NCBI GenBank assembly: GCA_027063755.1
Contig: JAMORD010000091.1
Span: forward strand, 1 to 7,524
Length of the DNA stretch: 7,524 nt
From: a bacterium
GTDB lineage: Bacteria; Coprothermobacterota; Coprothermobacteria; Coprothermobacterales; JAADFF01
Reading direction: 5' to 3'
In this document: positions 2,596-7,524 of the stretch, piece after piece
How the letters are laid out: every line of letters begins with the position of its first letter
Position numbering within the stretch: the stretch's first letter is position 1
Translations under genes and position numbers: made by a program
The notes under the pieces: model-generated
The model's database searches: none
What the model saw: only the letters and a program-made list of their open reading frames with translations
Told to the model about the DNA's origin: nothing

Positions 2596-4803
2596 ATGGT
2601 GATATACAGTCATCCTGGTAGAGACCTTGTGTCCCATCTTGAAGGGGTAACAGAGAATCTTAAGCATATGAATGCAGACTATGCCCGCATATTGGGTATG
2701 ACCCATGACGGACTAAAGGCACATCCCATGTTTCAGGAGCTTTTGAGGGGTAAAGTTAAACGCTTTTCCCATGCTCCCGGTTCTGCCCTTATCACATATG
2801 TGTGGGCTATATCTGAAGGTTTGACTCTATCTGAAGCCATACTGCTTGCAGAGGCGGTAAGAAGACATCATGGCGGTATGCCAGATATGTCTGATAGTAA
2901 GGAGTTTTGGGGAAACGAAGAAGTGTTGGCAATGGAAGTGGAGAAGTTAATGGTCCCCGAAGTATCGGATTTTATCAAAAAACATGTGTGGGACGGGTTT
3001 GGCGAAGATGTGCTCCGAGATGCCTTAAGCCAGCTGCCAGCTCTTGTGTTATTTAATAATCCTCTTCCTCAGGGTGGATGGGATTTCTACATGCAGTTAA
3101 GGCATATGCTTTCGCAGCTTGTTGCAGCTGATAGGGTAGATGCTGTATTTGGTGGTGTTGCTGAGAAGGATGTGCTTGTTCCATCTTTGCCCCATCGTGT
3201 TGCCGAGATGGCATTGCAAAATATACAAGATTTTGTAGAGCATGCAGAACCTACCCCTATCAATGCATGGCGTAGCCGTGTGAGAAATGAAGTATTGGGA
3301 CAGTATGACTCATATTCCCACGATAGGGGTGTTTATCGTTTGGTGTTACCTACTGGTGCCGGTAAAACATTGATTTCTCTTACCATGGCACTCAAGGCAG
3401 TTCTAAAAGGTAGAAAGCGTATTATTTATGTCTTGCCATTTATCAGCACAGGTGAGCAGGTTGCCAGTGTTGTTAAAAATATAGTAGGAAAAGACTATGT
3501 CATGATAGATAACTACCTTCAGAAAGGCAAGACAGATACCGATATGTTGAGCCAGATGGATATTATTACGCTGATTATGAGATATTGGACAGCTCCTGTT
3601 GTTGTGACCACGGCCGTGTACATGTGGGAGGTGCTGTTCTCACCAGGTGCAATGGATCTTATGAACTTCCATCTTCTAAAAGATGCCGTATTGATTTTTG
3701 ATGAGGTGCAAGCTATTCCCTCTGAATATTGGAATGACCTTGCTGGTATTGTTAGCCGTTTGGCAGACAGTAGCCTTGTTGTGCTCATGAGTGCGACACA
3801 CCCCATTGATGTTAAAGATAGCATAACCCTGTCTACCTCTGAGAAGATACCAGTGGTGAGATATGAGGTATCTACTACCGATGTGCCAACCCCTAAGGAT
3901 ATAAAAAAAGCCTTTGAAGAAGACGGCAGTGTTCTTGCCATATTCAATACCCGCCGTGGGGCAAGGGATTTCTTTATGGATGTAGAGCCTCTTATACCGA
4001 GTGATGCCTTGTTTTTCTTGTCTACATATATTATTCCCAAGGATAGACACCATATTATCAATATGATTAAGAAAAGAGAAGAGCAGAATTTGCCCCGTGT
4101 TCTTATATCTACTCAAGTTGTTGAGGCAGGTATGGATTTGTCATTTAAGATGCTGTATAGGGAGCTTGCACCACTTGATAGCATAGTGCAAAGTGCAGGT
4201 AGGTGTGGTAGACATGGGGGATATGTGGGTAATGTGTTTGTGGCTTGGGATGAGTCTAATATAGGTAAGGTCTATGGACTTTTGGCAAAAGATAAGACAT
4301 TGAAGATACTTTCCCCTGTAAAATGTAAGGTGCTACCTGAACATTCGTTTTACGGGCTTGTGGATACATATTTTGACCTGCTTAAGGATGTCAAGAGCCT
4401 ATCTGAAATCACAACTGGGGCTATCCAGACGGGTAAATACAGCATGTCTAGTGTTGATTATCACATCATCAAACATACCCACCATGATGTGTCTGTTGTT
4501 ATTCCCACAGATGAAGAAGTCTTATCTTGGATAGATGAAATTGTTAATCTTATGAAGAGCCATACGACCGATAAGTTTGAAAAGCTTAATAGAAAACGCA
4601 TGCTTTATGCACGGCTTTCTTCTTATACCATCAATGTGCCCCAAAGTATATGGAAATATGTGCCCGGTGATATGTATTCCAGTGTTGGTGACAATAATAG
4701 GCTATTTTATATCCTTCCTGAGTATATACCCTATTTTTACCATCCCAAGGTGGGGTGGAACTTCTTTGGGGAGGAAGAGGGATATGGAGCCAGCATTATA
4801 TGA
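2596..4803 (+). CDS. cas3: CRISPR effector nuclease-helicase Cas3 (HD domain fused to SF2 helicase)
   Basis: A 735-residue protein that Cascade recruits to the R-loop to nick, unwind and degrade target DNA. The N-terminal HD domain (about 1-230) has SHP (5-7), H14, the HD pair (37-38), H59 and HH (91-92), the expected metal ligands. The usual HD-I/L-G-K reads HDGLK here, at normal spacing to the following FQ. The helicase part has Walker A LPTGAGKT (251-258), the DEVQ box (369-372), SAT (399-401), STQVVEAGMDLSF (505-517) and motif VI QSAGRCGRHG (532-541). The C-terminal domain runs to 735. GGAGGTGA (2587-2594) serves either ATG 2596 or GTG 2599; the latter has more usual spacing, so the N-terminus could be one residue shorter. 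The 3' end overlaps cas4 by 20 bp. Length and motifs suggest an active enzyme. Confidence 0.93.
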   Translation: MVIYSHPGRDLVSHLEGVTENLKHMNADYARILGMTHDGLKAHPMFQELLRGKVKRFSHAPGSALITYVWAISEGLTLSEAILLAEAVRRHHGGMPDMSDSKEFWGNEEVLAMEVEKLMVPEVSDFIKKHVWDGFGEDVLRDALSQLPALVLFNNPLPQGGWDFYMQLRHMLSQLVAADRVDAVFGGVAEKDVLVPSLPHRVAEMALQNIQDFVEHAEPTPINAWRSRVRNEVLGQYDSYSHDRGVYRLVLPTGAGKTLISLTMALKAVLKGRKRIIYVLPFISTGEQVASVVKNIVGKDYVMIDNYLQKGKTDTDMLSQMDIITLIMRYWTAPVVVTTAVYMWEVLFSPGAMDLMNFHLLKDAVLIFDEVQAIPSEYWNDLAGIVSRLADSSLVVLMSATHPIDVKDSITLSTSEKIPVVRYEVSTTDVPTPKDIKKAFEEDGSVLAIFNTRRGARDFFMDVEPLIPSDALFFLSTYIIPKDRHHIINMIKKREEQNLPRVLISTQVVEAGMDLSFKMLYRELAPLDSIVQSAGRCGRHGGYVGNVFVAWDESNIGKVYGLLAKDKTLKILSPVKCKVLPEHSFYGLVDTYFDLLKDVKSLSEITTGAIQTGKYSMSSVDYHIIKHTHHDVSVVIPTDEEVLSWIDEIVNLMKSHTTDKFEKLNRKRMLYARLSSYTINVPQSIWKYVPGDMYSSVGDNNRLFYILPEYIPYFYHPKVGWNFFGEEEGYGASII

Positions 4804-5305
4804 CATGCTTGAGATTATTACCTCTCATGTGTATTCTGCATATCACTACTGTCTTAGGCAGGGGTGGTATGCAGCCCATCGTATGATGGGAGAGCAGTCC
4901 AATGAGTGGATGGCACGGGGTAAGCTTATAGAAAGTCTGGTAAAGAAAAGGGGTTATCGTCAGGTCTATTTGCTTGGCTCTGTCATAGATATTGTAGAGG
5001 ACACCTCAAGGGGCTTGAGGGTTGTGGAGATAAAAGCATCTAAAGGGTCTCTTGAGAGGGGTATTCATCAGGCAAAGTTCTTTCTATTTCTCTTACATCT
5101 AACCGGTGTTGATGATGCCATAGCAGAGGTTAGTGTACCCATGAGCAAAATAAGACAGGAGATTAGACCATCTGACGAGGTTTATCGTGAAGTTGAAGAA
5201 TATGTCCGTTTTTTCTACAACATATCTCAAGGTCCACCACCCCATATAGAAAGGGTGAAAAAGTGCCATGCCTGCAGTTATAAGCATTTATGTTGGGGGA
5301 GCTGA
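4784..5305 (+). CDS. cas4: Adaptation nuclease Cas4 (RecB-like PD-(D/E)xK with four Fe-S cysteines)
   Basis: A 173-residue Cas4, which trims prespacer ends and helps select PAM-containing DNA in complex with Cas1. The four cluster cysteines are present: C23 in YHYCLRQGW, and C161, C164, C170 in KKCHACSYKHLCW. The nuclease core has D69 (GSVIDIVE), E82 and K84 (VVEIKAS) and Q96 (HQAKFF). The motif I position, where Cas4 proteins have His in a 'G..iH' context, reads GKLIE (46-50), so E50 seems to replace it. The start is ATG 4784, chosen because GGGGAGG (4768-4774) lies at good spacing; a longer in-frame extension to 4577 runs inside cas3 and is not credible. It overlaps cas3 by 20 bp and ends 2 bp before the first cas1 gene, so it is probably translationally coupled on both sides. 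Confidence 0.88.
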   Translation: MEPALYDMLEIITSHVYSAYHYCLRQGWYAAHRMMGEQSNEWMARGKLIESLVKKRGYRQVYLLGSVIDIVEDTSRGLRVVEIKASKGSLERGIHQAKFFLFLLHLTGVDDAIAEVSVPMSKIRQEIRPSDEVYREVEEYVRFFYNISQGPPPHIERVKKCHACSYKHLCWGS

Positions 5306-5307
5306 CA

Positions 5308-6105
5308 ATGTCTGCTATTCCACTGTATCTGATCCGTAAAGGCGAGATTAGAAGACAGCAAAACACCATTGCCATATTGGGGGAGGGCAGACCTGTTTTT
5401 AAGCCCATTAGTGGTATCTTGTCGCTCTACATCTATGGCAGGTACAAACTAAACACATCGGCCGTTGGTTTTCTTGATGATAACTATGTGCCCGTGCATA
5501 TCTTTCACCGCAGTGGAATGTATAGGGGTACATTTTACAATCCTCCTATACCCTCATCTGAAGTGTTTGTCAAGCAAATAGAGTACTTTCAAGACCGTGC
5601 AAAGTATAAGGTATTTGTCAGTGTTTTGAGGGATGCCTACAGAGAAATGTTGACCTTGTCTTGTTCTTACGATGTCAATGATGGGATACTGCGATATTTT
5701 AAGGGCTTGCTCTTTGCCACCCTTGTTGACGGTATATATATGACCCATTTGGACCCTACTGCCTTTCCATCAAATAAAGGTGTTAGCATGGCACTTGTCT
5801 ATGCTTTGTTTGGAGTCTATGCTCCTGTGTTGAGCTGTGTGGCGTATGAGTTTTCTTTGAAGCATAAGGTTTTGCCATCAGATTGGTATGAATGTGGTGG
5901 CTACCCATGTTTGAGAGCAGATGCTTTGAAAAGTCTGCTTCTGTATTGGGAGAAAATTATGTCCTCTTCTATTGTCTTTCGTTGGGGAAAAGGTCCCCGT
6001 CGTATGCTCTTTAGAAATGAGTTTTGGAAAATAGAGCACATGATTATGTGGGGAGAGCCATATACCCCATTTGTTGGCTTGTGGCATATTGTAGGAGGTG
6101 TATAG
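5308..6105 (+). CDS. Diverged Cas1 paralogue lacking the catalytic residues
   Basis: A 265-residue Cas1-family protein. The N-terminal beta domain is recognisable (LYLIRKGEIRR at 7-17, YIYGRYKLNT at 41-50, VPVHIFHRSGMYRGTFYNP at 61-79). The helical domain keeps NDGILRYFKGLLFATLVDGIYMTHLDP (124-150, with LDP at 148-150) and the C-terminal helix and tail (KIEHMIM, GEPYTPF 249-255). The active site is gone. The stretch that should carry the Glu ('ExxAxxxYW') is missing, so residues 111-124 run directly into the next helix. After LDP the expected 'xIGxLHE' reads TAFPSN, and the expected 'LDxAE/D' segment reads ALVYALFG. Start ATG 5308 is preferred over ATG 5290, since GGAG at 5298-5301 precedes it. 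It lies 2 bp after cas4 and 1 bp before the active cas1. The intact frame and good ribosome site argue against decay. A structural integrase subunit is my inference. Confidence 0.82.
   Translation: MSAIPLYLIRKGEIRRQQNTIAILGEGRPVFKPISGILSLYIYGRYKLNTSAVGFLDDNYVPVHIFHRSGMYRGTFYNPPIPSSEVFVKQIEYFQDRAKYKVFVSVLRDAYREMLTLSCSYDVNDGILRYFKGLLFATLVDGIYMTHLDPTAFPSNKGVSMALVYALFGVYAPVLSCVAYEFSLKHKVLPSDWYECGGYPCLRADALKSLLLYWEKIMSSSIVFRWGKGPRRMLFRNEFWKIEHMIMWGEPYTPFVGLWHIVGGV
6093..6098 (+). promoter_or_regulatory. Ribosome binding site setting the cas1 start
   Basis: AGGAGG lies 8 nt before ATG 6107. This favours 6107 over the in-frame GTG at 6098, which overlaps the site itself. It also places the start 1 bp after the stop of the upstream paralogue, so the two Cas1 proteins are probably made in a coupled way and in similar amounts. 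Confidence 0.75.
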
Positions 6106-6106
6106 C

Positions 6107-7039
6107 ATGTTGTTTAAAGCGTTTTATTTGGGAGGTGAGATTAAGGGGGTAGACGATAAGTGGTATTTCTATTCAAGTGATGGCAGTCGCTATAATATGA
6201 CCGATAACGATGTTAGGGATATATATTTCTTTAATGAAATATGGTTTCCTTCCCATTATCTGCGGTATATGGGGGACAGTGGGGTAGCACTGCATTTTCT
6301 CAAGCATGGCTTTTATCAGACAACTTATCTGCCAGCTATGGGGCATGGACGTTGGCCCATTTACAAAAAACAGCTTGAAGCCTATAAAAATAACGATAAA
6401 CGTCTTTCTATTGCCAAAGCGTTTGTCATGTCAGAAATTGTGTCTGCTCAGATTGTTTTTCCACATATTGATATGTCAGATATTATAAATAAACTGAACA
6501 TTGCATCTGAGATTCCATCGGTTATGGCTGCTGAAGCCGAGGCAATGAAACGGTATTGGCATGAGTGGCATGTTCGCGTACCGGAGTTTACCGGTCGTCA
6601 ATTTAATCCATCCCCTGATAAGTACAATGCCATTGTTAGCCTTGCCTATGCCTATCTTTATGGCACGGCATTTAGTGCTATAAAAATGACAGGCTTAGAT
6701 CCCCGTATAGGTTATCTTCATGAGAATAGATTTCGTACCAATACATTGCATCTTGATGTGGCAGATATGTATAAGCCCATTGTGGCATCGTTTGCCATGA
6801 AACTTGCCATGAAATGGAAGGACAATATGTTTTATCGGTTGGGGAAAGGGATATATTTAAGCGATAAAGGTATGCAGAAATTTACAGAGTACTGGGATGA
6901 CCTGCTAAGAAGTAGAGGGCGCTGGTGTAATAGACTGTCATTTGTTGTCATGATAGCCAAAGATGTCAGGGAACTGAGGGGATATATCATGCAGGGGAAT
7001 AGGCCCTTTGAAAGTTGCATTGTCAGAGAAAGGAGATAG
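6107..7039 (+). CDS. cas1: CRISPR integrase Cas1, catalytically complete
   Basis: A 310-residue Cas1, the integrase that joins prespacer 3' ends to the leader-repeat junction. The active-site residues are all present: E143 in EAEAMKRYW (spacing to the Tyr matches the family's 'EGxAxxxYY'), H205 in LDPRIGYLHENRFR, and D217 and D220 in LHLDVADMYKP. The N-terminal beta domain (MLFKAFYLGGEIK, then VALHFLKHGFYQTTYLP) precedes the helical catalytic domain. Length is near normal. The C-terminal end (GYIMQGNRPFES) is a poor match to the usual 'GExYxPF' tail, which the upstream paralogue keeps. It differs strongly from that paralogue over its whole length, so the duplication, if it happened here, is old. 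Cas2 follows after 3 bp. Confidence 0.93.
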   Translation: MLFKAFYLGGEIKGVDDKWYFYSSDGSRYNMTDNDVRDIYFFNEIWFPSHYLRYMGDSGVALHFLKHGFYQTTYLPAMGHGRWPIYKKQLEAYKNNDKRLSIAKAFVMSEIVSAQIVFPHIDMSDIINKLNIASEIPSVMAAEAEAMKRYWHEWHVRVPEFTGRQFNPSPDKYNAIVSLAYAYLYGTAFSAIKMTGLDPRIGYLHENRFRTNTLHLDVADMYKPIVASFAMKLAMKWKDNMFYRLGKGIYLSDKGMQKFTEYWDDLLRSRGRWCNRLSFVVMIAKDVRELRGYIMQGNRPFESCIVRERR

Positions 7040-7042
7040 AAA

Positions 7043-7309
7043 ATGTTTGTGATACTTGCATATGATGTAGATGAGAAAAGGGTGGCTAAAGTTTTGAAAG
7101 TTGCCCGTAAATATCTTGTGTGGGTGCAAAATTCTCTGCTTGAGGGGGATATATCTTCTTCTCAACTGTCTATGTTGAAGATGGAGCTGCGTGAAGTGAC
7201 CGAAAATACCGATAGGGTAAGATTCTACCTCATGAAGGGTAAAAAGTATATGAAAATAGAAGACCTTTATGACGGAGATGTTGATAGCAGGGAAAACTTC
7301 ATAGTGTAG
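7043..7309 (+). CDS. cas2: CRISPR adaptation protein Cas2
   Basis: An 88-residue ferredoxin-fold protein that bridges two Cas1 dimers in the spacer integrase. The family pattern is clear: FVILAYDVDEKRVAKVLKVARKYL at the start with the conserved D8, then WVQNSLLEGDIS, the 'F/Y..L.S/KKY'-like strand (VRFYLMKGKKY), and a short tail. Length matches the usual 85-95 residues. The start at 7043 has AGGAGAT just upstream, overlapping the cas1 stop. It is the last cas gene before the leader, the normal place in type I-B loci. Confidence 0.93.
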   Translation: MFVILAYDVDEKRVAKVLKVARKYLVWVQNSLLEGDISSSQLSMLKMELREVTENTDRVRFYLMKGKKYMKIEDLYDGDVDSRENFIV

Positions 7310-7449: not shown

Positions 7450-7524
7450 GCTTTCAGCCTACCCATAGGGGATGTAAACTGGAGGTATATTCTGCAGTGT
7501 CGGATATTCTTCCTGCTTTCAGCC
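7450..7524 (+). CRISPR. Start of a type I-B CRISPR array: one repeat, one spacer, partial second repeat
   Basis: A 30-nt repeat at 7450-7479 begins GCTTTCAGCC and ends ATGTAAAC. Its first ten bases recur at 7515-7524, where the window ends. This gives a 35-nt spacer (7480-7514) and a period of 65 nt. The repeat centre carries the short inverted repeat CCTA..TAGG. It resembles known I-B repeats of the kind '...AGCCTACCTATAAGG...GAAAC'. Orientation fits: the leader is on the left, and the AAAC end abuts the spacer, so the 8-nt crRNA 5' handle would be ATGTAAAC. Only 10 nt of the second repeat are visible, so the exact repeat edges are partly inferred. The array continues beyond the window. Confidence 0.88.

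Follow-up and report, generated by a model that had tools for sequence, protein, structure and literature searches.

Tandem cas1 genes with complementary losses suggest a probable heteromeric integrase in a type I-B CRISPR-Cas operon

CRISPR integrases are built from Cas1 and Cas2, and the two subunits of a Cas1 dimer play different roles. In E. coli (type I-E), only one Cas1 in each dimer performs catalysis; its non-catalytic partner makes contact with Cas2 and protects the PAM end with its own C-terminal tail (PMC10011333). In the Megasphaera Cas1-Cas2/DEDDh integrase, the C-terminal hairpin of a Cas1b subunit caps the PAM nucleotides, and the C-terminal loop of the Cas1b subunit meets the repeat (PMC10284694). 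The two roles in these homomeric integrases are taken by identical polypeptides. Departures from plain Cas1 + Cas2 are known, namely fused Cas4/Cas1 (type I-G), Cas2/3 (type I-F) and Cas6-RT-Cas1, but these fusions add other enzymes to Cas1 or Cas2, and the Cas1 copies within each complex are identical. Inactive Cas1-solo genes with non-conserved catalytic residues have been described near casposases and termed vestigial (PMC9755687). Here, we describe a CRISPR-Cas operon with the same protein families and gene neighbors as the homomeric integrases, in which a catalytic and a non-catalytic role per Cas1 dimer are also proposed, but in which the roles are apparently assigned to two diverged cas1 genes (hereafter cas1' and cas1''), one of them without an active site. 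Although Cas1' resembles the Cas1-solo proteins in its non-conserved catalytic residues, those genes lie outside CRISPR operons, whereas cas1' lies inside a complete cas operon and adjoins a catalytic cas1. The order cas4, cas1, cas2 is that of the type I-B module cas4-cas1b-cas2, an example of which is found on another contig of the same genome (C163); that module has one complete catalytic cas1, whereas the present operon has a dead and a live copy.

The window (the whole stretch of DNA analyzed, 7,524 nucleotides) is contig C91 of a 1.5-Mb draft genome in 251 contigs. Open reading frames and matches to Pfam and NCBIfam gave the gene order cas8b-cas11-cas7-cas5-cas3-cas4-cas1'-cas1''-cas2-array, running left to right on the forward strand, with a leader between cas2 and the CRISPR array; cas8b is truncated by the contig start and the second CRISPR repeat by the contig end. 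Both cas7/csh2 (940-1872; TIGR02590, 3.3e-73) and cas5b (1876-2553; TIGR02592, 7.9e-31) scored over the cut-offs of their models. They are followed by cas3 (2596-4803), encoding an HD nuclease and helicase (NCBIfam cas3_core, 9.9e-33; cas3_HD, 8.6e-12), and by cas4 (4784-5305; Pfam Cas_Cas4, 2.6e-26 on 4793-5302), whose ATG at 4784, assigned from the sequence, overlaps the end of cas3. The two cas1 genes occupy 5308-6105 (cas1', stop included, 265 aa) and 6107-7039 (cas1'', 310 aa), the coordinates given in the sequence-only reading, with a 1-bp gap between them; cas2 (7043-7309, 88 aa) was identified by its reading frame and by Pfam. Successive genes from cas4 through cas2 are separated by 1-3 bp, and a ribosome-binding-like site is present for each of cas1', cas1'' (AGGAGGT, 6093-6099) and cas2. 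The first CRISPR repeat (GCTTTCAGCCTACCCATAGGGGATGTAAAC) lies at 7450-7479 and spacer 1 at 7480-7514, and the second repeat starts at 7515. Contig C166 (L040) carries the distal end of an array that has the same repeat and whose repeats become degenerate there.

Judged by its genes, the effector is of type I-B, as marked by cas7/csh2 and cas5b; Cas8b, Cas7/Csh2, Cas5b and Cas3 were all found, together with an I-B-like repeat. The Cas8b pieces match TM1802/Csh1 and are split over two open reading frames (2-529 and 526-921), the first matching positions 313-434 of the TM1802 profile and the second matching positions 491-599. The second frame overlaps the first by ATGA and has a ribosome-binding-like site (GGAGGTGAG). 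From these two profile segments, the overlap and the site, the small-subunit (Cas11b-like) part of Cas8b seems to be a separate gene. No cas6 was visible in the window, and no exact match for two spacers was found in viral contigs.

Cas1' is a member of the Cas1 family (Pfam PF01867, Cas_Cas1, 46.9 bits vs. a cut-off of 22.3, 2.7e-12; PADLOC Cas1b, 1.1e-21). It also matched the NCBIfam Cas1 models, in all cases below their strict cut-offs, and the cut-off of TIGR03641 (Cas1b) was reached by neither Cas1' nor Cas1''. The N-terminal domain (residues 1-83) and the first helix (97-115) are present, and the helices carrying the catalytic Glu are missing; in the alignment, the gap spans about 65 family positions, catalytic Glu included. 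The His column is occupied by P154 and the two acidic columns by A166 and G169. Because the Glu segment is absent and the His and acidic positions are replaced, Cas1' is, on its primary structure, a Cas1 homologue and not a Cas1 enzyme. Alignment with Cas1b covers the N-terminal domain and resumes at residue ~122, continuing to the C-terminus. In BLAST, residues ~122-260 were matched with C-terminal portions of ordinary Cas1b proteins at E-values down to 1.6e-8, indicating that the LDP helix and the GEPYTPF tail, by which the sequence-only reading had aligned the gene, are truly homologous. The tail retains E238, K241 and Y252, all three of which are lost in Cas1''. The AlphaFold2 model of Cas1' (pLDDT 75.8, five-sequence alignment) showed a Cas1 fold, for which Aquifex Cas1 was the closest solved structure (2yzs; 257 aligned residues, Z 25.8), and lacked the two helices found around the Glu in Cas1'' (Cas1'' residues 124-132 and 136-157).

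Cas1'' matched Pfam Cas_Cas1 at 147.1 bits (7.6e-43), NCBIfam TIGR00287 at 155.9 bits (cut-off 71.7) and PADLOC Cas1 (3.5e-46). Its E143, H205 and D217 stand in the catalytic Glu, His and Asp columns, and D220, also named in the sequence-only reading, stands in a column that is mostly Glu among the relatives. The AlphaFold2 model of Cas1'' matched Thermotoga and Pyrococcus Cas1 over its whole length; like that of Cas1', it was built from five sequences and is of moderate confidence. The Cas1 parts of the fused adaptation proteins mentioned above also structurally matched the Cas1 models of the window. Assignment of roles by comparing the Cas1' and Cas1'' models with the two known Cas1 conformers was uninformative, because both models fitted the same conformer.

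The active site is thus confined to one gene, and we compared which conserved positions each gene had lost. Reference columns were those at least 90% conserved in 38 Cas1b proteins, the genome's own Cas1s being excluded. In the N-terminal domain, Cas1' retained 9 of 12 columns and Cas1'' only 5; for the three single Cas1s that this genome encodes, the counts were 11, 11 and 9. In the His/Asp core the order was reversed, with 6 of 31 columns retained in Cas1' and 19 in Cas1''; the single Cas1s retained 27, 18 and 17, so that the core of Cas1'' is as well kept as in two of them (17-18). Among columns lost in just one of the two proteins, 1 was lost by Cas1' and 5 by Cas1'' in the N-terminal domain, compared with 14 and 1, respectively, in the core (Fisher p = 0.0017). 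Setting the conservation threshold at 80% gave p = 0.005, and at 95% p = 0.010. Compared with the single Cas1s, the two more diverged of which were used for the core, the N-terminal domain of Cas1' (p = 0.39) and the core of Cas1'' (p = 0.82) were normal, whereas the N-terminal domain of Cas1'' (p = 0.005) and the core of Cas1' (p = 0.0008) were depleted. As these tests were framed after the alignment had been viewed and the columns are non-independent, the p-values amount to a strong description, not proof. The C-terminal columns were depleted about equally in both proteins, at different sites, and the argument from the Cas1' tail accordingly rests on few residues. What appears to be new here is that the losses of the two genes are complementary, a pattern that goes beyond the bare loss of an active site: Cas1' seems to keep what a non-catalytic subunit needs, and Cas1'' what a catalytic subunit needs.

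Three further complete single cas1 genes were found in the same small genome, on contigs C113 (L041), C158 (L042) and C163 (L043), the module orders among them being cas6-like/cas4/cas2/cas1/array, cas6-like/cas1 and cas4/cas1/cas2. The module on C163 is the nearest to that of the window. The two Cas2 proteins are 63% identical (the next best Cas2 found was 55%) and the Cas4 proteins 36%, and Cas1' and Cas1'' are 12-37% identical to the C163 Cas1, depending on the region. Such retention of Cas2 while the Cas1s diverged is as expected after duplication and specialization. In the Cas1 tree, whose branches are too long for placement of the pair, Cas1' and Cas1'' did not appear as sisters, and one-clade tests neither supported nor rejected their sisterhood.

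Whether the tandem pair is conserved elsewhere had been proposed as a check. No second pair was found with Cas1' in about 470 sampled genomes, a small sample, or, when Cas2 was the query, in 386 genomes from this sampling. One other genome of the genus had no match to Cas1' or Cas1''. In scans of contig collections, which reach close relatives only, none were found for Cas1' in viral or genome contigs or for Cas1'' in viral contigs, and a Cas2-based scan of genome contigs gave three loci, none (0/3) with tandem cas1. Phage records gave no match, and plasmids gave ordinary Cas1b only. When a Cas1 profile was run over the retrieved loci, a doubled match was obtained only for the pair in the window and for one frameshifted Cas1 (L045:8287-9407), in which the gene is apparently shifted near its start and two overlapping frames match positions 1-43 and 24-330 of the profile. 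In genome G103, the best N-terminal match (41%) was considered as a second short Cas1 and rejected, since it is an ordinary Cas1 truncated beside a transposase-like ORF. In that locus (L007:1-1818), cas1 breaks off within its C-terminal part next to the long transposase-like ORF, probably through an insertion into the adaptation module. A Thermosipho MAG (L046:8001-9537) carries a single cas1 between two different cas2 genes, a mirror case of a doubled adaptation gene. As for published systems, the statement that no I-B system of this form was known agrees with our keyword search of the open-licence literature, in which no CRISPR operon with a paired or an inactivated Cas1 came to light; a term search within the 2025 classification of CRISPR-Cas systems gave none either.

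The draft state of the genome, incomplete and in 251 contigs, raises the question of whether the pair is an artefact, either because a sequencing error divided a single gene or because assembly joined the genes of two strains. This is hardly credible. Each protein has its own N- and C-terminal domains, which excludes a frameshift split; the two are only 7-23% identical by region, which excludes one gene assembled twice; and the tight junctions from cas4 to cas2, with a ribosome-binding-like site per gene, also speak for genuine neighbors. If the pair is real, Cas1' could still be a decaying duplicate in a module that is ordinary and single-Cas1, or dying. Its badly diverged catalytic core with the ~65-position deletion, its want of close relatives and the other complete cas1 genes in the genome would all suit decay. 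However, Cas1' has no stops or frameshifts in 265 codons, where simulated neutral drift to 65% amino-acid identity would give about 5 stops; its codon bias resembles that of the neighboring genes, and in its own frame only; and its N-terminal domain is conserved as in the single Cas1s (9/12 vs. 9-11, p = 0.39). As far as a single sequence can show, open, codon-biased frames with their own ribosome-binding-like sites in both genes are evidence against decay, which we consider improbable.

A functional Cas1' need not be a partner of Cas1''. It might be a pseudo-enzyme that is expressed and folded but has a task of its own, such as regulating the integrase or scaffolding Cas4 or host factors, perhaps in homodimeric form, while Cas1'' homodimers integrate with Cas2. 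The intact frame and predicted fold of Cas1' agree with this, and Cas1'', whose catalytic residues are all present and whose Cas1 fold is full-length, might work alone; but the loss of conserved N-terminal residues in Cas1'' (5/12 vs. 9-11, p = 0.005) would then be left unexplained, and we regard such a division of labor as unlikely, though it deserves consideration. One of the two proteins could also pair with a complete Cas1 from elsewhere in the genome, e.g., that of the C163 module, given three such genes and a C163 Cas2 that was closer to that of the window than any other Cas2 found. We find this highly improbable, since the operon provides both genes with their own Cas4, Cas2 and array, and the C163 Cas1 is at most 33% identical to either protein over most regions.

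The best reading, and in our view a fairly probable one, is that the locus encodes a heteromeric CRISPR integrase in which a Cas1'/Cas1'' heterodimer sits on Cas2. This interpretation follows from the known integrases, with one catalytic Cas1 per dimer, combined with the complementary losses seen here, and it agrees with the position of both genes in one operon between cas4 and cas2. The anatomy on which the sequence-only reading had based its active/inactive heterodimer was correct; the complementary losses, the codon-biased frame and the published non-catalytic subunit support the proposal, and the complex itself would follow from them by inference. Against it stand the single example of the tandem pair, a tree that does not place the two as sisters without rejecting it, and the three other complete Cas1 genes of the genome, which might serve the array of the window. 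That the heteromer is obligate, requiring both the dead and the live subunit, with the asymmetry fixed in the genes and not reached by conformation, has in our estimate slightly better than an even chance; this part is suggested by the depleted N-terminal domain of Cas1''.

Under the heteromeric reading, the pair probably arose by duplication of a Cas1b gene, the two copies then specializing through complementary loss. Cas1'' would be the catalytic subunit, taking the prespacer 3' end and performing strand transfer, and Cas1' would be the permanently non-catalytic subunit, pairing with Cas1'', docking the dimer on Cas2 and, by means of its C-terminal tail, acting on either the PAM-side end or the repeat. 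Two Cas1'/Cas1'' heterodimers and one Cas2 dimer would be expected to form the complex, which would work with Cas4. In homomeric integrases both Cas1 roles reside in one polypeptide, so that no mutation can alter one role and spare the other. If the heteromeric reading is true, the catalytic and structural roles of Cas1 would here be separately mutable, and this natural split would open to direct test the part played by the non-catalytic Cas1 in Cas2 docking, PAM-end protection, the hand-over from Cas4 and repeat bending. The pair would moreover clearly exemplify duplication with complementary loss in a CRISPR protein that is among the most conserved.
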